From positions 1-64,000 of the forward strand of contig JABHFS010000148.1 in NCBI GenBank assembly GCA_018672475.1: a stretch of DNA of 64,000 nt, given 5' to 3'. This document shows positions 23,579 through 48,728 of the stretch, one piece after another. This stretch comes from Gemmatimonadota bacterium. Lineage in GTDB: Bacteria; Latescibacterota; UBA2968; UBA8231. A program made the translations under genes and the position numbers. Numbering within the stretch: the first letter of the stretch is position 1; the number at the start of each line of letters is the position of its first letter. Below the pieces are notes generated by a model. It saw nothing but the letters and a program-made list of their open reading frames with translations. It made no database searches and was not told the origin of the DNA.

Positions 23579-23588
23579 CGCAGCGCGC

Positions 23589-30358: not shown

Positions 30359-32503
30359 TCAATAAACCAGCGAAATAGTGCCGGTCCGGTTGCCGATCTC
30401 TTCGTCGGTGTCCAGTGAAATACGATAGATATAATTTCCTGGCGCCACCTGCTCGCCCTCGTCGTCGCGGCCGTCCCATTCCGGCACGTCGGGGCCCTGG
30501 TCGAAGAGCCCGCGAATCACGTTCAGCCGCTCCAGACGGCGGATGCGCCGGCCGGCCAGATCGTAAATATCAATGGTCAGTTCGCGCTGCACTGACACGT
30601 CGTAGAGTTGGAAACGAAATTCAGCAGCATCGTTGACGCCATCGCCATTCGGGGTAAATGGATTGGGCGCGATGCGTACCTGCGCCAGCGGGTTCGCGCC
30701 CAACTCATCAGTGCGTACCCCCAGCGAATTGCCCGGAAAGTCGACATTGGCGTCACCCGGATCGATCAGTTGTTTGACGCCGTTGCTCTCGCTGTCGAAA
30801 ACCCAGCCCTGGAATTGGGTACCATAACGCACCACGTGCACGTCGAACTCCACTTCGATGAGCTTGAAGGTGTCGTCGGCCCCCTCGAGTTTGGGCAGGG
30901 AGACGATAATGCGGTCGTCGAGGATCTCAATGGGAAAGCCGTCATCCAATTCGACCCCGTCGACACGCACTGCACGCACCTGATCCACTCGCGTCAAAGT
31001 GAAAATTTCCAGACGGTCAAAACCGGTATCACCGCCCTCGAAGGTTGGACGTACGCTATAAGTGAAGGCGGTAATCTCGGTGCGCGAGACGTCTTGCGGC
31101 CAAATCTCGCCGACGATACCCAATGCCGACGGGGGCGCGAACTGGACCTCTAACTCGCGCAGTTGCCCGGCCTTGCTCAAACTGGACAAGAAAATCACCT
31201 GGACTTGCAGATAGCGACTGGGCCCCGGCGAAAGGATCGGCGTACCGTCCAGCCAATCGGCCGCCTCCAACTCCGGGTCGCTTTGGCCGACTACCAACGG
31301 ATAGGGGGCCGACCAGAAGCTCCAGTTTCCCGTGTCGAGGGTAGTAAAACGTATCGACTGGTCCGCGCGTTCGAACTCCACACGGTCCAACGAAGTCGGC
31401 TCGCCTTCGATATTGCTGGGCACCCAATAGAGACTGGGGTCCAGATCATTGCCCGAGCGGGTGCGGATGATCACATTCGAATCCTCGTTGAACAGGCCGT
31501 CCCAACGGATTTTCCCCCAGGCCATCGGCGTGCCGAAATCGAGCACGGCGGTGGTATAGACGGCGCGCTCGACATAGCCCTCACCAAAGATCTCGAACTC
31601 GGCGATTTCCCAGCTTTCGATCGGGTTGAGCGGCCGCACGGCAACCCACTGGAACTGTTGGCTCGGAAAACGGATATCGACGATCGCATCCAGGTTTTCG
31701 GTTTCTTTGCTCAACGTAATCAGTCGCGGGTCATTGGGCGCGTCGACGCGGTTGCGGCTGATCGTATTGAACCAACGATTTTCGGAGGTGCTCAAATAGC
31801 AGTGGGAGGCAAAACCGTGTCGGCTATTGGCCCCTGAAACTTCGAACCAGGGCAGAAAATTCTCGGTAAAATCCTCCTCGGCCAGGCTTTCCTTGAGCAA
31901 CCGGGGTTCCCCCATCCGCTCGAGTAACTCGTCTATTTTGGGATTGGCAGTACCCAACCGCGGATAGAAGCGAATCCGGTTAATCGGATAGTTGACCCCC
32001 AACTCGACAATCGAATTCTGCACATACAGCCGGCTCTCAATTCCGCTATTCTCGCTGGTACTGACATTGAAGAACGCCGCGGTATTGGGATCGCCGTCGT
32101 ACATCGGACCGACCTGCACCAATTGCGTCGAGATATTGCTGCAGTTTCCGCTGGTCGTGATGTTGTTGGAAATCCCACGGGCGATGCGAGTGCGGGCGGC
32201 CGGATGGGCCAGGTTCAGGTCCGGCGGCACGAAAAAGGGACGCATCCACCGGCGACCGTCAATATCGAGGATTTCGTTGAGCGTGTCTTCCCAAGTCGAA
32301 TAAGAGATATTGGAAGCTATTCTCTCGGTTGCAATAGAAACGCCCGAAGCATTGAGCACTGTGTAGTTGCCCGGCTCAAACGACAGTGCAGTATCCCAGG
32401 CGTTACCATCCTCGCCACCGAGTTTATATACGTTGAATGCCGATACGGGCCCGGTAAGGGTCGCTATGAGCAAGACACTGAGCCAACAGCCGGAGAGAGA
32501 CAT
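30359..32503 (-). CDS. large exported surface protein: discoidin-like segment, WSxWS motif, CHU_C/FlgD-like Ig C-terminus (family member A)
   Basis: Signal peptide; EIAEFEIFGEGYV, IIRTRSGNDLDPSLYW, WSFWS, ILSPGPSRYLQVQ, GEIWPQDVS, RIAPNPFTPNGDGVNDAAEFRFQLYD..IYDLAGRRIRRL..WDGRDDEGEQVAPGNYIYRI..ISLVY. Confidence 0.8.
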   Translation of the reverse strand: MSLSGCWLSVLLIATLTGPVSAFNVYKLGGEDGNAWDTALSFEPGNYTVLNASGVSIATERIASNISYSTWEDTLNEILDIDGRRWMRPFFVPPDLNLAHPAARTRIARGISNNITTSGNCSNISTQLVQVGPMYDGDPNTAAFFNVSTSENSGIESRLYVQNSIVELGVNYPINRIRFYPRLGTANPKIDELLERMGEPRLLKESLAEEDFTENFLPWFEVSGANSRHGFASHCYLSTSENRWFNTISRNRVDAPNDPRLITLSKETENLDAIVDIRFPSQQFQWVAVRPLNPIESWEIAEFEIFGEGYVERAVYTTAVLDFGTPMAWGKIRWDGLFNEDSNVIIRTRSGNDLDPSLYWVPSNIEGEPTSLDRVEFERADQSIRFTTLDTGNWSFWSAPYPLVVGQSDPELEAADWLDGTPILSPGPSRYLQVQVIFLSSLSKAGQLRELEVQFAPPSALGIVGEIWPQDVSRTEITAFTYSVRPTFEGGDTGFDRLEIFTLTRVDQVRAVRVDGVELDDGFPIEILDDRIIVSLPKLEGADDTFKLIEVEFDVHVVRYGTQFQGWVFDSESNGVKQLIDPGDANVDFPGNSLGVRTDELGANPLAQVRIAPNPFTPNGDGVNDAAEFRFQLYDVSVQRELTIDIYDLAGRRIRRLERLNVIRGLFDQGPDVPEWDGRDDEGEQVAPGNYIYRISLDTDEEIGNRTGTISLVY

Positions 32504-32576
32504 ACTTTGTACCTCGACCTCTAAGAGGGTAGAATGAAATTAAAATAAAGAAAAATTGTCCGATTTGTGAATTTAT

Positions 32577-32606
32577 TTGACTAATCTTAATATTGCCTTA
32601 TATAAA
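32577..32606 (+). promoter_or_regulatory. putative sigma70-like promoter for the 32670/32676 gene
   Basis: TTGACT (32577-32582), 18-bp spacer, TATAAA (32601-32606), in the divergent intergenic region. Confidence 0.5.
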
Positions 32607-32627
32607 ACAGAACGCTCGCGTGTTGTA

Positions 32628-32671
32628 TGCTACATTAAAAGGCAGACGTTGCTACATTAAAAGGCAGACGT
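32628..32671. repeat. perfect 22-bp tandem duplication
   Basis: TGCTACATTAAAAGGCAGACGT at 32628-32649 and 32650-32671. Confidence 0.97.
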
Positions 32672-35459
32672 GAACATGATACAACGGTTGGTGCGAACCC
32701 CTATTTTTTTGTTGAGCATTTTTTACGGGCTAATCTCGTTTAGCACCGACCTTCAGGCCTTGGACACGCTGCGGGTCGGCAATGGCGGCAATGTCTCCTG
32801 GGCCGGGACGGTTTTCGGCGCAGCGGCAACCACGACCCTCCCCGAATACAAAGTTAGCCGCTTCTCCACCGAAATAGGCAACGTACCGGGCAATCTAATC
32901 GATCTTTCCAACTTCGACACGGTCAACCCGCAAGTCCTGGTCAAAACCCTGGTCGACGCCCCACCCGAATTGCTCGCTGGAGAGGTCGCGCTGGTCGAAG
33001 AGGCCCTGCTCGAAGCGCTCTCCTCCCTGGCGGGAGCGACCGCCATTACCCCTTCTAACAATGAGGGACTGTCGCTAATTCGTCTCGATTTTTCCGACAA
33101 TATTCCACTGACCGAGGCCGTCGCTCGAACCACGGCAGCCATCAACACTATAAGACCGATCCCCGCAACCAGTGCAGAGCCCGGTGAGGCGGCGGGAAAA
33201 TTCCTGCTCCAGGACCCCGCGCGTCTACCGCTGGGCGTCGACCCGATAATTTTACCCATTACACTGAACCCAGACCACGTGGCCAAGGGGGAGAATGTCG
33301 CCTTGCGCGCCTTGGGTTGGGGCGGCCGTATTACAGCACCGGCGATCAAAGACGTTACGGCGGCCGAGTTAGCCGTTACGTTGCTCGAACTCATTGAACC
33401 GGGAGGCGCCGAAGACGCCTTCGTCCGCAAGGGGCTATTCGGCGCGCTGGGTACTTTTATCGTCCTCGACCTGGGCAGCCCCATCGGCATCAACCGCATC
33501 CGCTTCTTTCCGCGCAATACCGTGCAGGACGCTCCCCAGTATCCTTTTCAAACCGATTTTATCCGCCAATTCGAACTGCTGGTGCACGATGGCCAGGATC
33601 TGGTATTGGACGGTACCGGCCGCCTGGTACCGCAACTCGACGATTTCGAGGTTTTGGAACGCACCACGAACAATGAAGACGCCGTGGTCGAGGTAAAGTT
33701 GGACCCGGCGCAAACGGCGCGTTTCGTACGGCTAAAATCCACTTCTTCCTTTCCCTACGAAATCGACGAGTTTGAGGTCTTCGGCCAGGGTTTTATCAGC
33801 TCTAGCCGCTATATATCCCACGTCTACGACCTCGGCTCGCCCGCGACCTGGGGCAACCTGAGCTGGATGGAACAAACTGTGGACTTGCGCACATCCAATA
33901 ATCGAACCGACCAGATTGCGGCAGGCGGCGGTTGCCAGGTTAACTCGCAGATATTTATAACGGCGGACGACATCCCCGACACCTGGGGCGATTGCGACAC
34001 CGTAGCGCGTTTCACTAACGAGTTCGGCTATAGCAATGTCTGGCAATGTTTTCAGTCAGAGTGCGAAGATACCAACGGCGATCTCTCTGTGCTGCCGGGT
34101 CGCCAGGAGAGCGGCAAGCCGGTAGCCTCCAAGAAGCTGGCCGACGACTTCTCGCAGGTTATCGTTCGCACCCGCACCGGCACCGACCCGACCCCCGTGC
34201 TCTACAAACGCAGCAACGTGCAGCGCGTTTCAGACGATCAACTCTCGGCTTCGTTGGTCAATCCCGACCAACAAATAAACCGCGACGAATACATGAACCT
34301 GGTGCCCAATCTGGAAGCGACCCCGCCGCAGGTATGGGGCAAGGGCGAGATCGAGGAGGATCTGCAAAACTGGAGCCCGTGGTCGTCGCCCCACCTGAGC
34401 GGCGAACGAGAGGGCGGCACCCCGGTCTTGTCACCTGGCCCCAGACGCTATATCCAATTTTCGGTGGATTTCCTCAATAGCGAAATCAACGCGACCAAAG
34501 CATTGGAACAACTCGCGATCGAATACCTTTTGCCACCCATCGCCGAAGAGTTGGTCGCCGAGATCTTCCCCCGCGAAGTCGATGTCTTCGAGCCGGTGGA
34601 TTTCACCTATGCCGTGCGCGCCAAGATGGAGTTCGAAGGCGTCAAGGGTTTCGATACCTTTGAATTGCTGACAACCACCCGGGTTCTGAGTATCAACAAG
34701 ATCGAGATCTGGGAAGTCCCCGACCAGTTGGTCACCGAACAGGAATTGAACGTCGACATAGTGACAGACCCAAACGGCCAAGCCGCGGTACAAACAGCCG
34801 ACGGTATGCAACACCCCTTGCCCTATACGGTGCAATCGGAGACCGGCGAGGTCTTTACCATCCAAGCAGTGACCCAACGCAATGTGATCGTTCGTTTTCC
34901 ACAAATCACCAGACCCGAGGGCGGAGGCGAGATGCTGCTAAAGCTCAAGTTCAGCGGCCGGGTGCTCTTGTTCAGCACCCTGTTCAGAGGCCAAGCCGTG
35001 CTGTCGTCGCAAACCGGCAGTATCCAGCGCATTGCCTCGGGCAACGCGGACTTCCTCGGCGAAGGCGATCTGCCTGCTTCCTCGGGCATTACCGTCTTGA
35101 GCCCCGATATCAATAAGGGCGACTTATTCGGATCGTTCGCGGCCGTGCCGCAGGTATTCACCCCCAATGGCGACGATATCAACGAGACCACAGAAATCGG
35201 CTACGATATCCTGGCGGTAACCCGGCCGACCGATGTAACCGTGCAGATTTTTGATTTATCCGGACGGTTGGTCCGATCGCTCTATAGCGGATCGGACTTG
35301 AGCGGGCACTTCGACGCCAAGCGGGTGCCGCAACTGGCCTGGGACGGCCGCGACCAGGCGGGTGACAGAGTGCCGCCGGGCCTGTATCTGGTCACTCTGA
35401 CCGTCGATGGAGACGCGCGCCAGACCCGGCGCGCCCGCACCGTCGGCGTCGCCTACTGA
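32670..35459 (+). CDS. large exported surface protein of the WSxWS/CHU_C family (member B)
   Basis: EIDEFEVFGQGFISSSRYISHVYDLGSPATWGNLSW, VIVRTRTGTDPTPVLYK, WSPWS, VLSPGPRRYIQFS, AEIFPREVD, VFTPNGDDINETTEIGYDILA..IFDLSGRLVRSL..WDGRDQAGDRVPPGLYLVTL..VGVAY. GTG 32670 or ATG 32676 start. Confidence 0.8.
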   Translation: MNMIQRLVRTPIFLLSIFYGLISFSTDLQALDTLRVGNGGNVSWAGTVFGAAATTTLPEYKVSRFSTEIGNVPGNLIDLSNFDTVNPQVLVKTLVDAPPELLAGEVALVEEALLEALSSLAGATAITPSNNEGLSLIRLDFSDNIPLTEAVARTTAAINTIRPIPATSAEPGEAAGKFLLQDPARLPLGVDPIILPITLNPDHVAKGENVALRALGWGGRITAPAIKDVTAAELAVTLLELIEPGGAEDAFVRKGLFGALGTFIVLDLGSPIGINRIRFFPRNTVQDAPQYPFQTDFIRQFELLVHDGQDLVLDGTGRLVPQLDDFEVLERTTNNEDAVVEVKLDPAQTARFVRLKSTSSFPYEIDEFEVFGQGFISSSRYISHVYDLGSPATWGNLSWMEQTVDLRTSNNRTDQIAAGGGCQVNSQIFITADDIPDTWGDCDTVARFTNEFGYSNVWQCFQSECEDTNGDLSVLPGRQESGKPVASKKLADDFSQVIVRTRTGTDPTPVLYKRSNVQRVSDDQLSASLVNPDQQINRDEYMNLVPNLEATPPQVWGKGEIEEDLQNWSPWSSPHLSGEREGGTPVLSPGPRRYIQFSVDFLNSEINATKALEQLAIEYLLPPIAEELVAEIFPREVDVFEPVDFTYAVRAKMEFEGVKGFDTFELLTTTRVLSINKIEIWEVPDQLVTEQELNVDIVTDPNGQAAVQTADGMQHPLPYTVQSETGEVFTIQAVTQRNVIVRFPQITRPEGGGEMLLKLKFSGRVLLFSTLFRGQAVLSSQTGSIQRIASGNADFLGEGDLPASSGITVLSPDINKGDLFGSFAAVPQVFTPNGDDINETTEIGYDILAVTRPTDVTVQIFDLSGRLVRSLYSGSDLSGHFDAKRVPQLAWDGRDQAGDRVPPGLYLVTLTVDGDARQTRRARTVGVAY

Positions 35460-35467
35460 GCGAGTTA

Positions 35468-37702
35468 TCAGTGCTGCGGCCCTTGCAGCTTATCGTCCCA
35501 CTGCTCCTTGAGTTGCTTGAAAAGCTCGGCTGAACGCCCTTCCCTGTAATACTCTGTAAAACGGCCCAGGTATTCGACGCCTTTGATCGTGTCTCCTTGC
35601 GCCATATACAAATGGCCGATCAGACGATTGGCCTGCTGATGCTCCGGTTGCATCGCCAGGATCGCCTGCACCTGGTCCATCGCCTCGGACGCGCGGCGTT
35701 CAACGATATACTGAGTCGCAAGCAACAAGCGGGCATCTACAGCCTGCGGGTCCAAGGCGATCGCGTGCTCCAAATGCGTGCGCGCCTTTAGCGGCTCGTC
35801 GGCGAAAAAAAGTAATCGCGCCAACCGATGGCGCACTGCAGTCTGGCTCGGATCTACAGCCAGGATCTTCTCGTATTCGCTACGAGCGATATCCGGATGT
35901 TCTAACGTTTCATGCAACTGCCCCCACTGAAACCGCGCCTGCAGCGAATCGGGTTTTACCGCGATCAACGCGCCATAGGCCTCCACCGCCTCTTCGAGTC
36001 GCCCCGCCTGGGTATAAGCATACCCCAATCGCCCCTGTATATCGGCCGTATCCGCACCCGGTGCAGTCTGTAATCGACGGTATTCGCCTATCGCCTCTGG
36101 ATAGCGCCGGGTCTGCAGATAGACATTGCCCAGGGCCAAGCGCGCCCGTTCGACATCGGGAAAACGCCGAATAAAGTCGCGGTAGACGGCGATTGCCCTG
36201 CCGTAGTCGCCGCGCCGAGCGTATTGCGATGCCAGGTTAAAACGAGCCCACTTGATATCGGGGTCCAGCTCTAGGGCTTTGTGGTAGGCAACAATGGCGT
36301 TAACTGGCAGCCCTTTTTTTTCGTAGACATACCCCAATCGATAGTGGGTCTGCGCGTCACCGTCCATATCCATCGACCCCACCCCCCAATTGCAGACCAC
36401 GAGCAAAGCCACCACTGTGCCGCACCCCGCGAGCAAGCCCCCATAGGCCCTTTGCCGCCACAACTGATAGAGTTCCCTCCCACCGTAAGCGGCGAAGAGC
36501 AAGAGCGGTGGAATCACCGGCAAACGGTATCTAGCGCTAATGAAAAAAGCGACTACAGACAGCATATAGGTTGCCGTGAACAACCCGAGAAGCAAAGACT
36601 CAGGGCGACGCAGTATACCACGACGCCAGCCCAGAGCGAAACCCGTCAACGCCAAAGGCGCCAATAGGCCAAAGGGAAAGGCTATCCCGTATTTCCACAA
36701 CAAGACCTGTAACAAGGAAGAATACTGGCGGGCGAAATAGAGTTCCTGGTTGCGGCCGATCTCGTCGCCGTTCCAGAATAAATACAACTTGTAGAACTGT
36801 AATTTTGTGAAGGCCACGGGCTGGTTGCGAAAAAAGTCCCAGGATTGCGCGAAGAAAAAGTGGGATTGCGCCGAGGGCTTCGTCACGCCGGCCTCGACGC
36901 GCGGGCGACTAGTCAGATCCAGCCAGGCCGGCCCCGGCTGAATCGCCACGGTCTCGTGATACCGGGCGTTGTTGCCGATGTAAAAGTTGAGACCGGCATT
37001 CGACGAAACCAATACCAGGTCGTCGCCCACCAGATAATTGCGCAGGCTAACTGGCGCAACCGCCAAGACCACGCCCAACAGCAACACCGCCGGGCGCAAC
37101 AACCGCTGGCGCACGGGCAAGTCCCGGCATAAATAAAAAAGCCAGCCGGCAGCCACAGGCGTGAACAACAAGATATTGGCGACGCACAAGGCCGAAAGCC
37201 CAAAGAGCAGCCCGGGCAATAGCAGCCGCCGAATTTGTCCCTCAACCGCCCACAAAAGCGCCAGCAACGCGCTAAGATTTAATAGGATCGCCAGGACCGG
37301 GGGCAGGAATTCCCCTTCAAAAAAAACAAAGGGGGCATAAAAAACAGCCAGGCCTGCCGCACACCAGGCAACTGCAGAAGAAAAAACCCGCCGACCGAGC
37401 CAGTAGACCTGCAGGCAGATCGTCGCCCCCAACGCCGCCTGTACCAGTCGCGGCAAAGTAAAACCAGGTTCAAAAAGGGCAAAGAGTACACCGAGGAAAT
37501 GCGGATAGAGTGGCGGTTGCCAGAAGGGCTGGCTATTCCCCACCCAATCGCCTAGGCCCATCGCCGTAGCCGCCTGCACATAAGTCTTGGCGTCGACCAG
37601 GGGGAAATCGTAGAAGGGACTCTGCTGGCTCTGGACGACATAGAGCAGGCGCACCGCAAAGGCGGCGGCCCAGACCGACGCGAGTCTTATTATCTGGCCC
37701 AT
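35468..37702 (-). CDS. GT-C type (PMT_2/ArnT-like) integral membrane glycosyltransferase with C-terminal TPR repeats
   Basis: About 10 hydrophobic helices; early acidic motif FPLVDAKTYVQAA; C-terminal TPRs (HYRLGYVYEKKGLPVNAIVAYHKALELDPDIKWARFNLASQYARRGDYGRAIAVY). Confidence 0.8.
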   Translation of the reverse strand: MGQIIRLASVWAAAFAVRLLYVVQSQQSPFYDFPLVDAKTYVQAATAMGLGDWVGNSQPFWQPPLYPHFLGVLFALFEPGFTLPRLVQAALGATICLQVYWLGRRVFSSAVAWCAAGLAVFYAPFVFFEGEFLPPVLAILLNLSALLALLWAVEGQIRRLLLPGLLFGLSALCVANILLFTPVAAGWLFYLCRDLPVRQRLLRPAVLLLGVVLAVAPVSLRNYLVGDDLVLVSSNAGLNFYIGNNARYHETVAIQPGPAWLDLTSRPRVEAGVTKPSAQSHFFFAQSWDFFRNQPVAFTKLQFYKLYLFWNGDEIGRNQELYFARQYSSLLQVLLWKYGIAFPFGLLAPLALTGFALGWRRGILRRPESLLLGLFTATYMLSVVAFFISARYRLPVIPPLLLFAAYGGRELYQLWRQRAYGGLLAGCGTVVALLVVCNWGVGSMDMDGDAQTHYRLGYVYEKKGLPVNAIVAYHKALELDPDIKWARFNLASQYARRGDYGRAIAVYRDFIRRFPDVERARLALGNVYLQTRRYPEAIGEYRRLQTAPGADTADIQGRLGYAYTQAGRLEEAVEAYGALIAVKPDSLQARFQWGQLHETLEHPDIARSEYEKILAVDPSQTAVRHRLARLLFFADEPLKARTHLEHAIALDPQAVDARLLLATQYIVERRASEAMDQVQAILAMQPEHQQANRLIGHLYMAQGDTIKGVEYLGRFTEYYREGRSAELFKQLKEQWDDKLQGPQH

Positions 37703-37711
37703 CGACGCAAA

Positions 37712-40420
37712 TCAGTTGCCCAGCCCGGCGTAGACGGTGATAAACCCTTCGGTCACGGTACGCGTTTTGATGTCTGGATCCTTAAAATCACGCGCGTCAA
37801 ATTTCAACCCAACCTGGGTCGTCAAAACATAACCCTGGTATTCGGCCACATTGGTGATTTGGGTGGCGGTAATAAAAGACTGGAAGTTGTTGATCTTGTC
37901 GTTCAGATCCTTGAACAGCACATATTCGATACCAGCCGATACCGTGGTCCGACGCAACACCGGGCGCTCAATAATGATGCCGAAAATCTCGGTCAATTCT
38001 TCGCGATTGTCGCCGCTGAACAGATCGTAGGTCTGACGGCGGTATTCGCTTTTCCAACGCGGTAACACGCGTATCTTGGACAACTCGATCAGATAATCGG
38101 CCTTGTTGAGGATGCCGAAGAAAAATTCTTCCTCGCCAAGACCGAATTCGGCGCGTTCGGTGCTATCGAGACGCTGGTTCCACAAATCGTATTTAAGCGA
38201 ATTTTTGATGGTCAAGGCTTCGAGCGGCGAATAGGTATGGCCGATATAAAACGAATTATAGAGGGCGTCGCGCCCCAGCAGTGGATCGATTACCTCGACA
38301 TTGCGCGAGTCGCGCAACGTATTGCGGCTGTCCCACTGCAGCAGGTCGTCGGGAATATTGTCCTTGACGCTCTTGAGCACCTCCAGGACCTTGAGCCGCC
38401 CCCAAGTTGGGTGGTCGGCGTCGACGGTGATTAGGCCGTAGGTTGCGTTGTTGCGCTGGTTCGATGTGATCCGGTCCTCGCGAGTATGGCCGACGGTCAG
38501 GCGGATTTCCGGGGTCAGATTCGCGCCCCCATATATATTGAATCCCTGGCGGTCGCGTTTGTAGGGAAAGTCCGGTTCGTTGTCGTTTTCGAAGCGGTCC
38601 ACCCAGCCGTTGTTGTTGGCGTCGATGCCGTAGAGAAACTCCGGCCGATCGACGTGCTGGCGCAGGAACGGTTCCTCGTAATCAGGGATGACATTGATGA
38701 CACTGCCGTTATCATTCTGGTTGAAGTCGGGAATAAAATCGTTATTCTCGTCCCATCCCGGGAAGACCGCCCGGTCGACCGACAGCGCGTCGTTGCGGCC
38801 CCAATCGGGGATCCGGTCCTGGTCGTCATTGTCTTCGACGAATTCGACCAAGAAACGCTCATTGCTACCCGGATTATGGTCTTCGTAATAACCCGAGTTA
38901 TAATCGATAAAACCATCTTGCTCGCTGATATAGGTGGATGTCGCGTAGTCGGGATCCATATGGAACGCCTCGCCGAAAAAGAAATAGGGGTCAGCGCGTT
39001 TCCACAGGTTGAGCATCCAAGCGTCGGACGAGGGCTTGTTCGAAATACCCGACGAAGTGCTGTGGTCGGTATTGCCCTGATCGGTGCTGGGATAGGGATA
39101 TTTGCGGTAGTTGCGGCTATTGTCCCACTCCCCATAGAGATGAAAACCCTTGACGTCCTCCAACGCGAGCGTGAACCCGAAAATCTGCGTCGCGGTCGGC
39201 AGTCCGTATTCGAACGAAACGACGCTCAAGTTGGTATTGTCCTTGACATTGCCTTCGGCCCGGGTAACCAATAGAAAAATCGGGTCGTTGTTGCGCCCGG
39301 TCTGGCGGTTGGAAGTCGACTGCATTTTATAGTCGTTGCCGAGCACTATATCAAATTCGACTTTGCGGATCTGCGATTTGTCCTGTGAGGCCACCAACAG
39401 GAAATCAGCGCTGTTAAAGTCATAGCGCAGGCGGATCTGCTCGTTGCCGTCGGCCGAAATAAAACCCTCCTGTGGGAACCCGCCTTCGATCACTGGTTCG
39501 AAACCGATCTCCTTGCCGCGGTCGACACTGCCGTCGAGGTAGGTGATGATGATATCCGAACCAGCCGGGAAAAATGCCGCGCCCCCCTCGCCATCGCCCG
39601 GCGAGTCATCGCTGAGCAAAAGCTCGATCCAGGAAACGGCTTCGTTTTTTTGGTCTACGGTCAACTCGCCCGAAAGCGGGTTGCCGCCGAAACCGTCGGT
39701 GAGGGTGTTCGACTGGTGGGAGTTGACGAAGTTGAAACCCAAGGTAGTGAAATCTCCGACCTGGATCGTGGTGCGCCCACCCATCAGCGTGGTGTTGTTG
39801 GTGCGGTTAATGCCCTCGCGGTTGGTTTGGTCGCCTCCCGACTCGCTCAAACGCGAATACAGGAATGTGAGCATGTATTTATCGGTGGCCAGGTCGAACT
39901 GGACCCCGTCAAAATCCGGTTTGGAGAACGTCATCGGCGTCAGGGTCGTGCGCAGGCCATTGCCGATAGTCAGGGCGTAGTAGTATTCGCCGACCGAGTC
40001 GGAGGCCACCAGCAGGCTGTTGAACCAGTTGTTGAAACGACTGTCCTTAAACAGCTCGTTGCCGCGCTGTAATGGCTGGCTCTGGTTGTTGTTGAAGATC
40101 AGCCAACCACGATTGACAAAATTGCCGAAGAAGTCGTAAAAATAACTCCCCTCCAACGCGGTATCGACATAGCGCTGATAAGGCCTTCGGGCGTAATTCG
40201 AGTATTCCCATTGCCGCCAGCGGTACTCGTTGAAGAGTTCCTGCGGGATATACCATTTTTTTACTGCCGGATCGATCGCATCAAAAAGAACGCCCGCCCC
40301 TTCGGGCTCGAATGTAGTCCTGCCGCCCCGCTGGACGCCAAGCCGGTTGCCGTAATCTAGGGCGCTGACCGCGCCGGCCAAAAGCCAAAACAAAGACAGA
40401 GCGAATAAAAGCGTTCGCAT
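37712..40420 (-). CDS. large exported protein, probable beta-barrel/surface protein
   Basis: 902 aa; signal peptide (LFWLLAGAVSA); Asp/Asn-rich DxNxNGWVD-type motifs; alternating C-terminus ending GFITVYAGLGN; 9 bp upstream of the GT-C gene on the same strand. Confidence 0.6.
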   Translation of the reverse strand: MRTLLFALSLFWLLAGAVSALDYGNRLGVQRGGRTTFEPEGAGVLFDAIDPAVKKWYIPQELFNEYRWRQWEYSNYARRPYQRYVDTALEGSYFYDFFGNFVNRGWLIFNNNQSQPLQRGNELFKDSRFNNWFNSLLVASDSVGEYYYALTIGNGLRTTLTPMTFSKPDFDGVQFDLATDKYMLTFLYSRLSESGGDQTNREGINRTNNTTLMGGRTTIQVGDFTTLGFNFVNSHQSNTLTDGFGGNPLSGELTVDQKNEAVSWIELLLSDDSPGDGEGGAAFFPAGSDIIITYLDGSVDRGKEIGFEPVIEGGFPQEGFISADGNEQIRLRYDFNSADFLLVASQDKSQIRKVEFDIVLGNDYKMQSTSNRQTGRNNDPIFLLVTRAEGNVKDNTNLSVVSFEYGLPTATQIFGFTLALEDVKGFHLYGEWDNSRNYRKYPYPSTDQGNTDHSTSSGISNKPSSDAWMLNLWKRADPYFFFGEAFHMDPDYATSTYISEQDGFIDYNSGYYEDHNPGSNERFLVEFVEDNDDQDRIPDWGRNDALSVDRAVFPGWDENNDFIPDFNQNDNGSVINVIPDYEEPFLRQHVDRPEFLYGIDANNNGWVDRFENDNEPDFPYKRDRQGFNIYGGANLTPEIRLTVGHTREDRITSNQRNNATYGLITVDADHPTWGRLKVLEVLKSVKDNIPDDLLQWDSRNTLRDSRNVEVIDPLLGRDALYNSFYIGHTYSPLEALTIKNSLKYDLWNQRLDSTERAEFGLGEEEFFFGILNKADYLIELSKIRVLPRWKSEYRRQTYDLFSGDNREELTEIFGIIIERPVLRRTTVSAGIEYVLFKDLNDKINNFQSFITATQITNVAEYQGYVLTTQVGLKFDARDFKDPDIKTRTVTEGFITVYAGLGN

Positions 40421-40439
40421 AACCGGACTCCCTCCCTAT

Positions 40440-40477
40440 ACAAAAATGAGGCGATGGGCTGGTCCGCCCATCGCCTC
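40440..40477 (-). terminator. rho-independent terminator downstream of the 40539-41438 gene
   Basis: Perfect 12-bp stem GAGGCGATGGGC (40448-40459)/GCCCATCGCCTC (40466-40477), 6-nt loop, minus-strand T run opposite 40442-40446. Confidence 0.85.
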
Positions 40478-40538
40478 TAAACCGAATATCTAGCACGCGA
40501 TCCTAGTCAGCAACCAAAGATCGCGTTAGCCAGCAATT

Positions 40539-41438
40539 TTAGTACTTAAACTCGGTCTTAATACGGCCCCAGCTATTGGACTCGACAGCCGTGGCCTGGT
40601 CGCCCCAAGCGATCGAATCATCTAACTCGCTCATGACCATGTCGTTATCTGCACGGCAACAGCCATTGGGCGAAACCGACCAGAAACCCTGGTAGTCTTC
40701 GAGCGCGGCACCACCGGGCGTATCGAAATCGCCGAAGGTCCAGCTAATGGCGATGACCTGGCCTTCTTCTAAGTCCGTCTCTTCGGCCACAGCCCGATCA
40801 CCATCATCGGGGATAAAGTCGAAGGGGCGTATCCAGGCTTCGTAAAAATAGGTGCTCTCGCCAAACTCTTCGCCGGAGAAAGTGTAGGCCATGCTCCACG
40901 CGTCGTTATTCGCGGGATCTGTGACCCAGTCAAAGGGAGGGTTGTAACCACCCCATGCGCCAGCGGTCGGCGGCATCGAGAAGTTATAACCGATTTTGAT
41001 GATACCTTCCTGGCCCGGCGCATAACCACCGCCGCCTTCGATCTCCGGATGCGTCGGGGAAATATAAATTTCCCAGGCGTCGTCGGCCCACCAAGCATTG
41101 GGGGTTTCGGCATCGCGACTATGCACGTTGTCGAATACCTCAGCCATCAGATAGATCAAGTTGGTATTGTCGTTCCAACCAACAACCTGACGCACACTCA
41201 AATCGCTGACGTCAATCTCGCCGCGCAACTTGCTGTAGACGGAGTCGGAGTAGCGATCATTGCCAACTTCATAAGGCACCTGCGGAACGACGCCCCAATC
41301 AGCGTGATTGCCGTCGATAACCGGGATGTTGGCATCGGGAAACTGCACGGCAAAAAAGAACTCTCCCGGAGGAAAGTGAGCCAAGGCCGGTAAGGCCAAG
41401 GCAACGGTAAGGACTGCACTTAAAACTATTTTACGCAT
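40539..41438 (-). CDS. exported CBM9/DOMON-like carbohydrate-binding protein
   Basis: Signal peptide VLTVALALPALA; VIDGNHADWG, WNDNTNLIYLMAEVFDNVH, WWADDAWEIYISP, FYEAWIRPFDF; strong SD AAAGGAG upstream. Confidence 0.75.
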   Translation of the reverse strand: MRKIVLSAVLTVALALPALAHFPPGEFFFAVQFPDANIPVIDGNHADWGVVPQVPYEVGNDRYSDSVYSKLRGEIDVSDLSVRQVVGWNDNTNLIYLMAEVFDNVHSRDAETPNAWWADDAWEIYISPTHPEIEGGGGYAPGQEGIIKIGYNFSMPPTAGAWGGYNPPFDWVTDPANNDAWSMAYTFSGEEFGESTYFYEAWIRPFDFIPDDGDRAVAEETDLEEGQVIAISWTFGDFDTPGGAALEDYQGFWSVSPNGCCRADNDMVMSELDDSIAWGDQATAVESNSWGRIKTEFKY

Positions 41439-41557
41439 CTTCTACTGATCTCCTTTTGAGAGATAATGTGAAAAACACGAACGAGAAGTGCACGAAAATG
41501 ACTATCGCAGACTAAACATGTAGCTTGCTATCTTTTCATTCGAATTTGACAATTGCT

Positions 41558-41622
41558 AACCGGACTAAACAAAATGAAAATAAAACTAAAAATCAAGCAT
41601 TTTTTTCTTTTATGAGCCGGTT
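41558..41622. other. composite stem-loop in AT-rich intergenic region
   Basis: AACCGG (41558-41563)/CCGGTT (41617-41622) enclosing ATAAAA-CT-AAAAAT (41580-41593), loop CAAGC, ATTTTT-TTC-TTTTAT (41599-41613). Confidence 0.5.
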
Positions 41623-41764
41623 CTATCTACTTTTTTAACAAATAACATAAGGCGATTATAATCAATTACTTAAAATTATCATAAATATAGTAATAATTGA
41701 CATTTCTAACATTCCACAATGAATTGTAATAATTACCACCTATAACGAAATTTTATCGGTAACT

Positions 41765-43546
41765 CTACTGTAATAATCGACGAATGCGCTCACCTTCCGG
41801 ATGGTTCGGCTGCAAACGCAGCAAAGTCGTCCAAGCGCTGGCCATCTCTTGATAACGCTGTTGAACATAATACACTTCGCCCAAACGGTAATAAGCCTTT
41901 GACGCATTGCCATCTAAGCCTATAAGCGCGGTGTATTGCGCAATGGCCGCCTCTGGGCGATCGACGCGTTCATACGCTCGGCCAAGATTGTAGTAGGCTT
42001 TCAGATGGCCCGGTTGCAAACTGAGCACCGACAGATAATGCCCTATTGCCTGTTCGTAACGTCTGGTCTTCTGATAGGTCAGCCCTAGATTAAAGTGAGA
42101 TTCAACATGGTTTGGATATACGCTCAGTGCCGTTTTGAACAAAGTGACCGCCTCTTCGTAGCGCCGCGACTGGCTATACAACAACCCGAGATTAAAGAGC
42201 GCCCGCAAGCGCGTCGGCTGGATGGCGACGGCCTTTTGATAATGGTGTATAGCTTGTGCGTATTGCCCTTGTTGGTAATAGGCAAAACCTAAATTGTCGT
42301 GGGCGCGAGCGTTTTCGGGATAGTGCCGCAACACCGCCGAGAACAGGCTAAAATCGCTATGCCAATCCCGATTGCGAGAGACGGTGCCGACGGCAAACAT
42401 TACGACAAGGCATAATATCGCAGCCCAAGCACCACGCCGCGTCGCCCATTTGGCGCCTTGCCATCCACCCCACCCCGCCATCAGCGATACCGGAATCATC
42501 GCCAGATGTAAATAGCGCTCGGCCATACCGCTAGGCGCCAAAACAAATAGGTTACTCACCGGCAACAAGCATATCCAGAAAAACAGGCTGAAAAAGCCGA
42601 AAAAACGCGACCTCGTATACCGCGACAGGATGACGAATACCGCGATGCTGAGCACACCGAATGCAAACCACGGGTCCACTAATGAGGTAATGGGAGGAAT
42701 CGACGCATAGGAATAATCAGCCGACAGATGCCGCGGCACGACGAGCAACAGAAGATACCGCGGCAAGATCGCCACAATCGTGCCGATCCGTTGCCAGGTG
42801 TCGAGGTCAGCAAGGAAATTCGTCGAAGCCGGTCCGGCGGGAGCCGACGAGTCCGCCAAGGCGAGCCAACGCAAAACCAGCGCAGCGAGTAAAACCACGC
42901 CATATCCGCAATTGCGCTTGATCCAGGTCCATAAAAAGACGGTTCGACTATCCTCAGATCGATCCAGATACCAGGTCTGCAAAAAAAGTACCGCCGGCAA
43001 GACCACGGCCGTTTCCTTAGACAAAACGGCGGCACCGTACAAGATCCAAGCTGCGATACGCCAGCGCCACAAGTCGCGCCGATGGGCTAAAAAAGCACCG
43101 AGGAAAAACAAGGTCGCCAGCAGATCGCCACGGGCCGAAACCCAGGCCACTACCTCGGTCTGGATCGGATGGCTCACATACAATAAAGCAGCCCACAACG
43201 CCGCCTGGTCCTCGCCGAGAAGATCTCTGGCGAGCATATAAAGCAGCACGCCATTGATCAAGTGCAACACGAGGTTACTCAGATGGTAGCCTAGTGGAGT
43301 TTCCTGGTAGAGGGAGAAATCAAGGCCCAACGAAAGCAAAGTGAGGGGCCGGTAGATATCCAAGCCCAGCCAGTTGGTGCGCAATAAATCGCCGATGGCC
43401 GGATTCCTCACCAGCGCGCTGGTCAGATAGGCTGAGTCATCAAATACAAAACCATTGCCCAAAGTATTGGCATAACATACCAGCCCGAGCAGAGCGATAT
43501 ACAGGTGATGCGGTATGACAGCCAACAAGCGTGCGATAAACCCCAT
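41765..43546 (-). CDS. TMTC-like GT-C O-mannosyltransferase-type membrane protein with C-terminal TPR array
   Basis: FVFDDSAYLTSALVRNP, YRPLTLLSLGLDFSLY...GYHLSNLVLHLINGVLLYMLAR, SHPIQTEVVAWVSARGDLLATLFFLGAFL, then TPRs (AHDNLGFAYYQQGQYAQAIHHYQKAVAIQPT). Confidence 0.85.
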   Translation of the reverse strand: MGFIARLLAVIPHHLYIALLGLVCYANTLGNGFVFDDSAYLTSALVRNPAIGDLLRTNWLGLDIYRPLTLLSLGLDFSLYQETPLGYHLSNLVLHLINGVLLYMLARDLLGEDQAALWAALLYVSHPIQTEVVAWVSARGDLLATLFFLGAFLAHRRDLWRWRIAAWILYGAAVLSKETAVVLPAVLFLQTWYLDRSEDSRTVFLWTWIKRNCGYGVVLLAALVLRWLALADSSAPAGPASTNFLADLDTWQRIGTIVAILPRYLLLLVVPRHLSADYSYASIPPITSLVDPWFAFGVLSIAVFVILSRYTRSRFFGFFSLFFWICLLPVSNLFVLAPSGMAERYLHLAMIPVSLMAGWGGWQGAKWATRRGAWAAILCLVVMFAVGTVSRNRDWHSDFSLFSAVLRHYPENARAHDNLGFAYYQQGQYAQAIHHYQKAVAIQPTRLRALFNLGLLYSQSRRYEEAVTLFKTALSVYPNHVESHFNLGLTYQKTRRYEQAIGHYLSVLSLQPGHLKAYYNLGRAYERVDRPEAAIAQYTALIGLDGNASKAYYRLGEVYYVQQRYQEMASAWTTLLRLQPNHPEGERIRRLLQ

Positions 43547-43668
43547 AAGGGCGAATTTCCTTGAGCGAGTCTAATCTTTATGTATCTTTAGCCTTATGTC
43601 GGGCTAGGGAGCCCGTGCGCAATGTAGTCATCAACACCGGAGCGGAAAAGCCCAGGGAGCAGGTTTTG

Positions 43669-45393
43669 CAGCGAAAATACTACAGTATAGATATAGGGCG
43701 GTACGTAGCTATATGGGCAGTATTGGCCCTAATGGCTGCATGCGGTCAAAACCGGGAACAACAAGCAACGCAGGAACCGGTCGCCCAAGTAGGCGACGTG
43801 CAGATCACCGGCGAGCAATTGCGTCGTTTTGCGTTAGATGTCCTTCCTGGATTGCGTCCGGCCAAGCAAGGCCAAGCCGCGCGGCAGGACTATCTGCAAA
43901 CCCTGATCGACCGCCAGTTGATGCTGCGCGCCGCGCGCGACATGGAACTTGCAGAAGAGCCGGCGATACGGGTTAAGGGCCTGCTCCAGCGGCGCGAATA
44001 TCTCGCCAACCTATACCGCCAACGCGATCTGCATCCCCGCGCACAGATCGACGACGCCGATATCGAACGTTTTTTTTATGAGCAAGGTCTAGATCGCGAA
44101 CGCCAAGTAACCGCTATCATGGTGAGGACCGAGGCCGAAGCACAAAAGATTCGTCAACAACTAGTCGCCGGCGCCTCGTTCGCGGAAATGGCCGCGCAAC
44201 ACACGCTGGACCCGCGCGTTGCAGAAAGAGGCGGCAAACTGGGGTATATGAATCGCTCCATGGCCCGCAGCATAGGGATCCCCAACCAAGTATTCGACGA
44301 TCAGCAGAGCAATGCCATTTCCGCTCCCTTGCCCATTGGTCCGCGTTTTCACTTAGTGCGTTTTATCGACGAACGCCAGGCCGAGATGAGCAGCCAACGC
44401 GAATTTCTCGCCAAAGGCCTGGTCAAAACAAAAAAGAGGGAAATAGAACAGCAGCAAGTAGAACTGTTCGCCTACGAACTGAACTGGCAGTTGACCGCAC
44501 AGGGTCTGGCCAATGTCAGATCGCTGGCCAAGGCCCAGACCGAGGCCGATCGCCAGCACCTCGCCGCAAATGCAGCGCTATTCACTTATGACGGCGGCCA
44601 AGTTCCCGTCGATGAGTATCTCGAAGTAGTGAAAAAACACCAGGTCACCAATCCCGCAGCTCTGCAAGACAGCGCCGCCATTGCAGCCTTCGCCCGCCGC
44701 ACGATCCTGCCCGAACTGATGCTCGCAGAGGCCGCACAGAAAGCCGAGTACCACCAGCAACCGAAGGCCGCCAGATGGTTAGCCGGCGCCGCCGAGGAAT
44801 TATTGGTAAAGGCCATCTACCAGCGGCAAGTCGGCGATAAGGTGGCCGTCAGCGAAGCGGAAATCGACCGTTATATAGAAGTGCACCCCGATCGATTTAT
44901 GATCCCCGAGTCCATTTGTTTCGACGAGCTTATCGCGCACGACAAACAAGAGGCGCAACAACTCAAAGAGCGTTTGACGGGGGAGGAAGATTGGGTGGCG
45001 CTGGCCGATGCTCGAAACTTAGAGCTCAGACCACGAGGTGAAAACGGGTTGGTATGTATGCACAGTTATAATAGCATCCCCTACCCCGACCTTTGGCAAG
45101 CGCTGCAGCAAGCAAAAATCGGCACCGTGGAAGGACCGGTACAAACCCGCGAGGGATTCGCTCTCTTCAAGGTCGCCAGCAAAACGCCGGCGCAACCCGA
45201 ACCGACCCAACAGGCCCAACAAAGGGCGCGGGCGATGTTGCTACAACAAGCCGAGCAAAGCCGGTTCGACCAGTGGTTGGCCGAGCTGCATATGAAGCAT
45301 CGAGACGAGATCAATATCTATGAAGAGCAACTCACCGCGGCGTTGCCCGAGGCGTTATTAGCCAGTCTAGTCCGAGAAACACAAGACAATTAA
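43669..45393 (+). CDS. parvulin-type (PpiC/SurA-like) peptidyl-prolyl isomerase lipoprotein
   Basis: Lipobox AVLALMAACGQN; VAQVGDVQITGEQLRRFALDV; RQVTAIMVRTEAEAQKIRQQLVAGASFAEMAAQHTLDPRVAERGGKLGYMNR parvulin-like; second divergent parvulin-like region. ORF extends to 43561; TTG 43669 preferred because it places the signal sequence at the N-terminus. Confidence 0.85.
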   Translation, partial: QRKYYSIDIGRYVAIWAVLALMAACGQNREQQATQEPVAQVGDVQITGEQLRRFALDVLPGLRPAKQGQAARQDYLQTLIDRQLMLRAARDMELAEEPAIRVKGLLQRREYLANLYRQRDLHPRAQIDDADIERFFYEQGLDRERQVTAIMVRTEAEAQKIRQQLVAGASFAEMAAQHTLDPRVAERGGKLGYMNRSMARSIGIPNQVFDDQQSNAISAPLPIGPRFHLVRFIDERQAEMSSQREFLAKGLVKTKKREIEQQQVELFAYELNWQLTAQGLANVRSLAKAQTEADRQHLAANAALFTYDGGQVPVDEYLEVVKKHQVTNPAALQDSAAIAAFARRTILPELMLAEAAQKAEYHQQPKAARWLAGAAEELLVKAIYQRQVGDKVAVSEAEIDRYIEVHPDRFMIPESICFDELIAHDKQEAQQLKERLTGEEDWVALADARNLELRPRGENGLVCMHSYNSIPYPDLWQALQQAKIGTVEGPVQTREGFALFKVASKTPAQPEPTQQAQQRARAMLLQQAEQSRFDQWLAELHMKHRDEINIYEEQLTAALPEALLASLVRETQDN

Positions 45394-45428
45394 CGCGGGG
45401 CTTATCGTCCAGCCCAAGGATAAGAGCG

Positions 45429-48400
45429 ATGATGACCAGACGAGCCGTAAGCCAGTATCCCGGCGTCCTGTTCTTCCTCATCACAGTAAGCCTTACCGTA
45501 CCGCAAGCGGGCGCGCAGGAGGGTTTTGCGCTCACCGTCGACGGGCTGGTTGTCGACCGGGCGGAGCAGTGGGAGCAATGGACGCGGCCTAAACACGCGG
45601 TGCGCATCGACCCCGAAACGCATGTCGTCACGCCCCGACGCATTAACCGGGCGACCAACGCCATCCTCGACATCGATGACTTCCAAACGCTGATAGGCAA
45701 CAACAAGGCCTACGACAAATTGGTCAAGGAGTTGAACCGCGCCGACCGGCCGATACCGCTCAATATCCGCACCGCGCCGGCGACGATCGCTGGCGTGCCG
45801 ATCGTCTATCTGAAAGCCAGCGAAAAAAATAACATCGAAGTCGGCGACCCGATTATCTGGTTTTATTTTCATGGCGGCATTCGCCAAGCCGGCACCAGCA
45901 TCGCGACGGCTTCCGCCGCCATCGACGGCGATCCCACCACCTATTGGGAACCCAGCACTTTGGTCACCAAGGCCAAATACGACGACTTGACACCAGCGGT
46001 AAAAGGCCCAGCCTATTTCTTTGCCATCAACGCGGACGGCAAAGAGCAGCGGGTGGACAAAGCCACCTTCGACGCGGCTTCCAGCAGAGACCGCCGTGTC
46101 GAATACCACAGCCATTCGCTCGAAAATTGGACGCTCGACATCGATCTGGGCCGCCTAGTCCCGATTGCAAAGGTGGTCCTGCGCTTTTTACACGGTAGCG
46201 AGGGCGAGCCTTTCCGCCAGGTGCGGCTGCTCGGTACTCCCTCGGACCTGCGCGGCGCGGCCCTCTCGTTGATAGACCGCACCATCGCCCCGGTCGAAAA
46301 TAGCAATGTGGTAGAATTCAACCTGGACCCCGACGACCAGGGCGTCTTCGAGCAATTGCACAACCTGCGCATCGCGGTTACCGACAGCAAATTCGACAAG
46401 TTCAAGGTCATTACGGCCGCCGAGTTCGCAGCGCTGCCGCTCGACGAACAGGGCGGCATCGACTACCACATCGTCAACGCCGCCGGCAGCGAGACCAAGG
46501 TCGCGGGGGAAATCTACGATGAAGTCAGCCCCGAACGCCGTGGCCGCCTAGTCTATTACAGCCGCGAACGCCCTCGCCTAGCCGAGGTCGAAGTCTGGAC
46601 CCAGGGCGACAACATCGCCCTCGAAATCATCGACGGCGGCGGCAGCGTCGACCTGACCGGCACCTTCGGCGGTTTGCCCGGTTTCGACGGTCGCTTCGAA
46701 AGCAAGTTCCTGCAATTTATCTGGTCGCCCGATCCGCGTTTCGAGGACCGCGGCATTATGACCCTGGACCTCGGCGCCCGATTCTGGCTCGACTACTTTC
46801 GCATGGTCGGCGAGATCAGCGGGGTCGACGAGATGATCGTGCAAATATCGGACGGCACGCGCGACTCCAATGGCAGCCTCAAATGGCGCGAGATGCACCG
46901 CCAGACCGGCGGCACCGTCGAGAGCCCCTTCGAAAAACCCGAGCAGGTGCGCTACCTGACCAGCCAGATCTTCACCAGCCAAGGCGGCCGCGCCGGCGGC
47001 TACAACACCGGCGACAATATCCGCGAGGTCCAACTATTCGGCGAAGGTTATCCGTCCGAGGTCACCCTCACCTCCCCGATGATAGAATTGCCGGGTTCGG
47101 TTATCCTCGGCCGCATAACATGGGACGCGGACCTGCCCGACGAGGAAATTGTAGATCTGCAAATTCGCACCCGCACCGGCGACCGGCTAGTGGAGGTCGT
47201 CGAATTCTACGGCAGCGGCGGCGAGACCAAAACCGAAGGCGATTACAACAACCTTCCGACCAGCTTTCAAGGGCCGATCGTCAACCGCCTGATACCCGGC
47301 GGCGGTTGGAGCAGTTGGAGCCAACGCTATACCCGCTCGGGCCAACTAATCACCTCGCCCAGCCCGCGGCGCTTTTTGCAGATTCAGGCCAGATTGTTGT
47401 CCACCTCGCCCGACCTGGCCGCTAGTCTGCAATCGGTCAATGTCGAGTTCCTACCGCCGGTCGCCCGCCAGACCATTGCCGAGATCTGGCCCGATGATGT
47501 TACCGCCAGGGAAGACCACGAATTCGAGCTCTATCTCAATCCAACCTTTGTCGAACGCCAGCCCGGCGGCCAGGTCAGCCAGCGCTTCGACGAGATCCTG
47601 CTCGACGCCACCCCGATAGAAGCCATTGAGCTGCTCGACGTTTCGCTCGGCCGGGAAGAGGATTTCACCACCGGACAGACCCGGCAGTTCTCCGAACCGG
47701 GCCAGTACCGCGATCCCGCCACCGGCGCAACGACCCCCTGGTTTACCAACGCGGACGGCCAGCGCTACCAAGCCCGAATCAACCCCGACAGCGGCGATTC
47801 GCTCAAGATCTTTCCCGCCGAGACCGGGACCGGCCTGTTATTGCACCTGCCGCAAAAGATCGCCTTGCAACCGCAGGGCGAAGATACGCGCCTCTATTAC
47901 CGGGTCATTGAAGAAGACGGCGAAGCAGTCCCTGTCGACAACGACGGCCGGACCCTCAACGAACTCACTTATCTCGGGCTATCACTCGAAGAACAGGGGG
48001 ATATTCTCTATTTCGCCATCCAGGGCCGCGATGCCGACGGCAAAGCGATCCTGGAAGCCGTCGAGAAATTCGCCTATCTGAGCCTGGCGGATTCACTGCA
48101 AGGCGAGATCCGTTATTTCCGCAAATTAGTCGGCAAAGGCGGCGAGTTTCCCTTTGATGAGGAAGGCAACGCATTGACCGCTGCCGACTACAACGCCCTT
48201 TCCCCGAGCCGTCAGGGGGCCATTGTCGCCGCCGGCGAGTTGGTGCAGGTGCGCTTTAGAGCCTCGATATTGCTCAATGGCACCACCGTAGACGCGTCGA
48301 TCCGCGACTCGGCCTTCCCAGAGACCTGGCAGCAGGTTGACCCAGGTGACGCCACCGACCTGCGACCAGGCACCGCCTTGAGCATTGCCGTGCCTTTTTC

Positions 48401-48728
48401 GCCCAGCGTGGTGCAAGAAGTCAAAATCTCACCTAATCCATTTACGCCCAACGGCGACGGCATCAACGACCGGACCAGTATTCGCTTTGCCTTGGGCAAC
48501 CTAAATATCGCGCGCGACATCCAGATTTATATTTTCGACCTTGCCGGGCGCCGAATCTGGAGCGGCAGCCAGCCGGGTTTCGGACAACAGGAATTCGCCT
48601 GGGACGGTCGGGCCGACGACGGGCAAACCGTCGCCCCAGGGGTCTACGTGTGTAAAATCGATGCGGAGGTAGACGCCGAATCGGCGTCCAATACCAGCAA
48701 GGTACACCTGATCTCGGTGGCCTACTGA
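45429..48728 (+). CDS. large exported surface protein of the WSxWS/CHU_C family (member C)
   Basis: NIREVQLFGEGY, LQIRTRTGDRLVEV, WSSWS, ITSPSPRRFLQIQ, AEIWPDDVT, KISPNPFTPNGDGINDRTSIRFALG..IFDLAGRRIWSG..WDGRADDGQTVAPGVYVCKI..LISVAY. Confidence 0.82.
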   Translation: MMTRRAVSQYPGVLFFLITVSLTVPQAGAQEGFALTVDGLVVDRAEQWEQWTRPKHAVRIDPETHVVTPRRINRATNAILDIDDFQTLIGNNKAYDKLVKELNRADRPIPLNIRTAPATIAGVPIVYLKASEKNNIEVGDPIIWFYFHGGIRQAGTSIATASAAIDGDPTTYWEPSTLVTKAKYDDLTPAVKGPAYFFAINADGKEQRVDKATFDAASSRDRRVEYHSHSLENWTLDIDLGRLVPIAKVVLRFLHGSEGEPFRQVRLLGTPSDLRGAALSLIDRTIAPVENSNVVEFNLDPDDQGVFEQLHNLRIAVTDSKFDKFKVITAAEFAALPLDEQGGIDYHIVNAAGSETKVAGEIYDEVSPERRGRLVYYSRERPRLAEVEVWTQGDNIALEIIDGGGSVDLTGTFGGLPGFDGRFESKFLQFIWSPDPRFEDRGIMTLDLGARFWLDYFRMVGEISGVDEMIVQISDGTRDSNGSLKWREMHRQTGGTVESPFEKPEQVRYLTSQIFTSQGGRAGGYNTGDNIREVQLFGEGYPSEVTLTSPMIELPGSVILGRITWDADLPDEEIVDLQIRTRTGDRLVEVVEFYGSGGETKTEGDYNNLPTSFQGPIVNRLIPGGGWSSWSQRYTRSGQLITSPSPRRFLQIQARLLSTSPDLAASLQSVNVEFLPPVARQTIAEIWPDDVTAREDHEFELYLNPTFVERQPGGQVSQRFDEILLDATPIEAIELLDVSLGREEDFTTGQTRQFSEPGQYRDPATGATTPWFTNADGQRYQARINPDSGDSLKIFPAETGTGLLLHLPQKIALQPQGEDTRLYYRVIEEDGEAVPVDNDGRTLNELTYLGLSLEEQGDILYFAIQGRDADGKAILEAVEKFAYLSLADSLQGEIRYFRKLVGKGGEFPFDEEGNALTAADYNALSPSRQGAIVAAGELVQVRFRASILLNGTTVDASIRDSAFPETWQQVDPGDATDLRPGTALSIAVPFSPSVVQEVKISPNPFTPNGDGINDRTSIRFALGNLNIARDIQIYIFDLAGRRIWSGSQPGFGQQEFAWDGRADDGQTVAPGVYVCKIDAEVDAESASNTSKVHLISVAY

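Follow-up and report, generated by a model that had tools for sequence, protein, structure and literature searches.

What do three large proteins with a common WSxWS motif do, and with which partners, in a 64,000-nucleotide stretch of a Latescibacterota genome (positions 1 to 64,000 of contig JABHFS010000148.1, the whole of which is here called the window)? The three are members of a very large cell-surface protein family of the Latescibacterota, whose proteins come in a short (F0) and a long (F1) form. Genes of both forms recur together with the gene of a predicted outer-membrane beta-barrel, F3. By analogy with known systems, it seems somewhat probable that F0 and F1 are surface adhesins exported by a type IX secretion system (T9SS) and that F3 is a non-homologous counterpart of the SprF/PorP barrels.

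All three open reading frames (ORFs) were found where the first-pass annotation, made from the letters alone, had placed them. The proposed motif series proved to be collinear, with FG[EQ]G[YF], RTR[TS]G, WSxWS, SP[GS]P[RS]R, [AG]EI[WF]P, FTPNGD, and WDGR in identical order in the three proteins, and WSxWS lies exactly at 31310-31324 (minus strand), 34371-34385, and 47307-47321, as annotated. Shuffling the same proteins produces each of the first five patterns in <0.4% of cases. Pairwise BLASTP comparisons of the three gave E = 6e-41, 2e-27, and 2e-13, and a profile-profile comparison aligned short-form with long-form relatives collinearly over 520 columns (E = 6e-89, probability 100). WSxWS had been termed invariant, which holds for the three window proteins but not for their relatives, since it is carried by 39 of the 43 long forms and 34 of the 66 short forms. 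The motif is also known from class I cytokine receptors, with which the five letters and nothing more are shared; a link to these receptors was rejected, with no fibronectin type III (FN3) match in any member scanned.

The family is much larger than the three-member, locally expanded group that had been supposed. The window F1 protein, used as query, gave >150 matching segments in its own genome (Latescibacterota, 6.6 Mb) and matches 89 ORFs there, at least about 80 of them full-length and scattered over about 35 contigs. Clustering of these matches separates about 46 full-length F0 from 34 full-length F1 proteins, the paralogue counts being lower bounds taken from the sequence stretches around the matches. 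Two sequences in alignment A4 of the family, probably L098:4920 and L099:4764, are phosphoesterases with 17-18% identity to the first row of the alignment; they have just the C-terminal domain in common with the family.

Domain searches bore out the description of a paralogous family whose large surface proteins have discoidin-like segments, a core that no Pfam model covers, and a CHU_C/FlgD-like end. The number of discoidin (F5/8 type C) domains is two in F1 and one in F0; in both forms the core and a C-terminal CHU_C follow. At E up to 0.1, F5_F8_type_C (PF00754) and PF22633 were found in 39 and 34 of the 43 long forms, respectively, and CHU_C in 43 of 43 long and 64 of 66 short relatives. 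Taken alone, the window F1 matches F5/8 type C weakly (15.4 bits against a cut-off of 28.2); the profile matches of F0 and F1 in the PDB are CBM32 and discoidin domains, one such fold in F0 and two in F1. CHU_C exceeds its curated cut-off of 27 in all three window proteins (29.6-37.1 bits) and is placed at the extreme C-terminus, where the final residue is Y in 77 of the 81 own-genome members of at least 500 amino acids (aa). In the AlphaFold model of the window F1 (mean predicted local distance difference test, pLDDT, 85), beta-sandwich domains follow one another in a string. Fold comparison found no whole-chain homologue among solved structures (TMq at most 0.14), the matches being generic beta-sandwich strings from complement, galactose oxidase, neuropilin, and PorU. 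The combination of discoidin, RTRTG-WSxWS core, and CHU_C in the order of F0/F1 is not described in the literature searched. From its domains, an adhesin or glycan-binding role of F0/F1 is plausible, and the discoidin domains, together with those of a CBM9-like protein of the same loci, suggest glycans as the ligand.

The core series is not peculiar to the family. Relatives without the family encode single proteins (L177, L179, and L180) in which a beta-propeller-type region is followed by the core as a RSGN...TWSxWS...RFLQYR module. These propeller proteins have the core module in common with F1, but they have neither discoidin nor CHU_C, and the two halves of their core adjoin, whereas in F1 an insert of about 35 residues separates them. 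The separating insert belongs to a beta-alpha-beta module of about 21 residues (consensus VEEATYEALPPEERGPIRYFR), which recurs in different beta-sandwich domains of F1, with up to 8 copies per protein. With a profile of the module, 255 copies were detected, spread over 80 of the 99 long-form proteins, against none in shuffled proteins; among all proteins of the loci examined, the module is limited to F0/F1. It was seen in the window F1 (45429-48728) and in long-form relatives in L055-L134.

F0 and F1 genes belong to a repeated cluster around the gene of F3, a partner that the first-pass annotation had overlooked along with the remaining cluster genes. F3 match segments number 32 in the own genome and 47 and 50 in two complete relatives. 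When 20 loci around F3 in one complete genome (G001) were compared with 20 random loci, F1 was present in 18 versus 0, F0 in 19 versus 4, a parvulin-type peptidyl-prolyl isomerase in 17 versus 0, a CBM9-like protein in 14 versus 0, and a TPR-mannosyltransferase in 6 versus 0. Among the cluster loci, the PMT_2-type TPR-mannosyltransferase is represented by 39 genes in 38 loci, the TMTC/PMT-like type occurs in 10 loci, and a GDSL/SGNH protein in 14, all three with none in the controls. A DUF6785/DUF6784 membrane protein occurs in 28 cluster loci (2 control genes), UnbV/ASPIC-type proteins contribute 30 genes in 25 loci (4 control genes), and TPR proteins are also among the recurrent neighbours. 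The gene directly upstream of F3 is a same-strand F0/F1 gene in 74 of 101 named-locus cases and, in the own genome, in 17 of 23; the gaps are close to zero, and several pairs overlap by 1 or 4 bases. When the kind of upstream F0/F1 gene, here called the cargo type, is followed along the F3 tree, it changes 7 times versus a shuffled mean of 24; that is, F3 subtype tracks cargo type.

The co-occurrence of F3 with the core extends through a survey of 64 genomes of the phylum. Both are present in 25 of 25 genomes of the window's own family, and clear F3 and clear core matches are found together in families f1, f5, f6, f8, and f9; in the last four, almost every genome has both, with F3 missing from one incomplete f9 genome. 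In the same profile survey, families f2, f3, f4, and f10 gave no F3 match and weak core matches at most, and those inspected (in G040, G023, and G018) are propeller proteins. In family f7, F3 is divergent (about 1e-80), as is an F0-like protein (L178) with discoidin-like, WSNWS, and CHU_C-like features. Thus, a restricted taxonomic spread and consistent neighbours, which had been named in advance as support for a new family, were both found. A divergent F3 subtype forms tandem arrays (G000:C109:61917-71348; G001:C1:3633547-3641999 and 5530274-5538899; G002:C1:1235992-1246357 and 392182-400288), and the genomes of f7 contain only F3 about as divergent as this subtype. Most of the named relatives of the neighbourhood belong to Candidatus Latescibacterota. 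Gemmatimonadetes or Gemmatimonadota stands in the title of several records, and those of L058, L060, L066, L069, and L071 hold Latescibacterota-type loci with identity of up to 87%; titles of this kind may be out of date.

F3 has no sequence match in Pfam, NCBIfam, or the PDB, and a Pfam scan of 19 members gave single chance matches at most; as judged from sequence, it is an undescribed barrel family. In its model (mean pLDDT 77), about 23-24 strands form a predicted outer-membrane barrel, into which one domain is inserted (aa 239-406); residues 489-623 make up a conserved stretch that is rich in D and N and contains EF-hand-like loops. Almost every long loop comes after an even-numbered strand, while very short turns come mostly after odd-numbered ones, which places the inserted domain and the D/N-rich stretch on the same face of the model; by the usual rule, this face would be the outside. 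Residues 525-628 are more conserved than the strands (mean 0.75 versus 0.58), and the strict pattern of an EF-hand-like loop is found in 32 of 59 F3 members versus 0.07% of shuffles, so that calcium binding by F3 is likely. Foldseek matched F3 to assorted large barrels at low TM-score (template modelling score), the best-ranked being MtrB at 0.27. An MtrB-like electron conduit was considered for F3 and dropped; the recurrent cluster genes showed no cytochrome family.

Parts of a T9SS are encoded in the own genome. SprA_N is present in a 2129-aa ORF, PorU was matched above its cut-off (637 bits) about 250 base pairs from a gene of the PorV family (258 bits), and there are further PorV-family proteins. 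At 12974-15190, the window also encodes a two-component-regulator-type propeller protein with a match to the PorZ N-terminal propeller (32.2 bits, cut-off 27), which is possibly the PorZ of this T9SS. In Flavobacterium johnsoniae, type B T9SS cargo requires a cognate SprF-like barrel, whose gene is commonly directly downstream (PMC12618676), and PorP-like barrels bind and anchor type B cargo (PMC9143113). The Latescibacterota clusters resemble such pairs (SprB-SprF and PG1035-PorP; PMC9143113, PMC12618676) in their large CHU_C-ended surface proteins, in the barrel gene that is often directly downstream, and in the correspondence between barrel subtype and cargo type. By this analogy, the F0/F1 discoidin adhesins would be exported by the T9SS, and a cognate F3 of about 900 aa would collect them and hold the protein on the surface, as SprF/PorP does for the type B cargo of Bacteroidota. 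The exposed discoidin and beta-sandwich domains could then bind glycans or other matrix ligands, in which case the many copies would amount to a repertoire of binding specificities, and the TPR-mannosyltransferases may O-glycosylate the cargo.

Several observations weigh against T9SS export with F3 as the cognate barrel. SprA_N is found in 60 of the 64 genomes whether or not the family is present, so the presence of SprA in genomes without F0/F1 means that a T9SS alone does not tie the system to the family. The stricter type B model, TIGR04131, gave 21.2-25.8 bits in the three window proteins against a cut-off of 35, for which reason F0/F1 are classed as working like type B cargo and not as certified members. 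Pfam and NCBIfam searches detected no relationship of F3 to PorP/SprF (PF11751/PorP_SprF). Neither the model of GldM, a component of the T9SS motor, nor the PorP_SprF profile matched in the own genome or in any control genome, and these blanks are not counted as absence because the searches had no positive control. Furthermore, the window F3 gene is directly downstream of the CBM9-like gene instead of F0/F1, and many cargo genes have no adjoining F3. Finally, F3 and cargo divergence are correlated (Mantel r 0.78-0.89), but the genes are linked and this confounded correlation is not taken as proof of pairing.

Barrels and carbohydrate-binding-type surface proteins in many paralogous clusters also recall polysaccharide utilisation loci, and F3 could be the importer of a SusC/SusD-like nutrient-uptake system, with F0/F1 and the CBM9-like protein capturing glycans at the surface. 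CBM9-like and discoidin domains would suit such a role. Nevertheless, it appears unlikely, as Pfam found neither plug nor barrel of a TonB-dependent receptor in the 19 F3 members scanned, F0/F1 have no SusD match but end in CHU_C, and no glycoside hydrolase-like family recurs in the clusters, judged by sequence starts and, for the window genes, by Pfam. Identity with SusC/SusD was rejected on domain content. A similarly low probability is given to F0/F1 as a structural coat or extracellular matrix of the S-layer kind, tethered to the membrane by F3 and glycosylated by the TPR-mannosyltransferases. The very high copy number of F0/F1, the recurrence of mannosyltransferases in the clusters, and the Deinococcus SlpA/SDBC envelope barrels at ranks 2-4 of the F3 Foldseek matches would agree with a coat. 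However, the TM-scores to SlpA/SDBC are low (0.17-0.25), like those to all other large barrels, and about 80 diverged paralogues are more readily understood as a repertoire than as one lattice protein. A coat is compatible with export by the T9SS and could be the final function of F0/F1.

It is very improbable that F3 itself, as an independent translocon or a channel like an usher, secretes F0/F1 without a T9SS, even though F3 and cargo genes are often almost contiguous and FimD ushers are among the Foldseek matches. FimD ushers hold a plug domain within a barrel of about 24 strands, whereas the inserted domain of F3, to judge from the loop pattern, would lie on the long-loop side, unlike the usher plug. 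In addition, TM-scores to ushers are about 0.2, the cargo bears CHU_C, and SprA, PorU, and PorV are encoded in the genome.

T9SS export with F3 as the cognate barrel would still differ from the known pairs. F3, with about 900 aa and 23-24 predicted strands, is without a PorP_SprF match; about 80 cargos contrast with 12 in F. johnsoniae; and the cluster additionally contains a parvulin, a CBM9-like protein, and mannosyltransferases. A more specific proposal is that F3 represents a new class of T9SS shuttle or anchor barrel, unrelated to SprF/PorP in sequence, and that with the parvulin, the CBM9-like protein, and the TPR-mannosyltransferases it forms a surface-display cassette, multiplied to dozens of Latescibacterota loci and carrying a diversified adhesin repertoire with the recurrent insert of about 21 residues; this is tentative and judged to fall short of probable. 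The system is real and large; it belongs to an uncultured phylum and is centred on an undescribed family of barrels. Its working principle most likely follows, by analogy, the cargo-shuttle pairing of the T9SS, a kind of principle already known. If so, the logic of cargo plus cognate barrel would extend beyond Bacteroidota with the use of an unrelated barrel, and an uncultured phylum would devote a noticeable share of its genome to one surface-display system. Names, profiles, and neighbours are supplied for about 80 large proteins per genome that would otherwise lack annotation, and a clear test of the pairing is possible. In the literature searched, no paper that mentions Latescibacteria also mentions type IX secretion, T9SS, or discoidin.

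The features of the window cluster are collected in Table 1.

Table 1. Coordinates of the F0/F1 proteins, their parts and the neighbouring cluster genes in the window (aa numbering refers to the encoded protein).
Feature	Position	Strand	Remarks
Short-form F0 protein, 714 aa	30359..32503	-	One discoidin-like domain, core RTRSG/WSFWS/SPGPSRYLQ, C-terminal CHU_C/FlgD_ig; terminus ...SLVY
F0-like protein, 929 aa	32670..35459	+	Module order as in other F0, long insertions; terminus ...GVAY
PMT_2-type mannosyltransferase membrane domain fused to TPR repeats	35468..37702	-	Recurs in clusters
F3 outer-membrane beta-barrel, 902 aa	37712..40420	-	Predicted, about 23-24 strands; matches no known family
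F5 secreted CBM9-like protein, 299 aa	40539..41438	-	CBM9_1 22.5 bits, slightly below cut-off 23.4; recurs in clusters
TMTC/PMT-like O-mannosyltransferase fused to TPR	41765..43546	-	TMTC_DUF1736 31.8 bits, cut-off 27
F6 parvulin-type peptidyl-prolyl isomerase, 610 aa	43561..45393	+	Two parvulin domains; recurs in clusters
Long-form F1 protein, 1099 aa	45429..48728	+	Two discoidin-like domains, core, CHU_C; terminus ...SVAY
Insert copy, aa 330-348	46416..46472	+	Window F1
Insert copy, aa 359-377	46503..46559	+	Window F1
Core module, aa 548-700	47070..47528	+	Window F1; RTRTG, WSSWS, SPSPRRFLQ, AEIWP
Insert copy inside core, aa 602-618	47232..47282	+	Window F1; no counterpart in core of propeller-linked relatives
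Insert copy, aa 848-862	47970..48014	+	Window F1
Insert copy, aa 878-898	48060..48122	+	Window F1
Insert copy, aa 918-933	48180..48227	+	Window F1
CHU_C (Pfam PF13585), aa 1002-1081	48432..48671	+	Window F1; 37.1 bits, cut-off 27
GDSL/SGNH-domain protein	48740..50305	+	Recurrent cluster neighbour
DUF6785/DUF6784 membrane protein	50443..52452	+	Recurrent cluster neighbour

The gene order in the window (F1, parvulin, TPR-mannosyltransferase, CBM9-like, F3, TPR-mannosyltransferase, F0, F0) is preserved in several loci of relatives, such as L057-L059 and L066. The protein encoded at 41765-43546 combines a TMTC_DUF1736 match above the cut-off with TPR repeats, the two features of a TMTC O-mannosyltransferase. 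Beside the cluster, at 27706-30246, is a GSDH/DUF7133 protein with FlgD_ig and a sub-threshold type A (Por_Secre_tail) C-terminus, which is a cargo type different from F0/F1. The region at 15957-27475 contains a run of UnbV/ASPIC and FG-GAP proteins together with TPR and FGE-sulfatase-like proteins.

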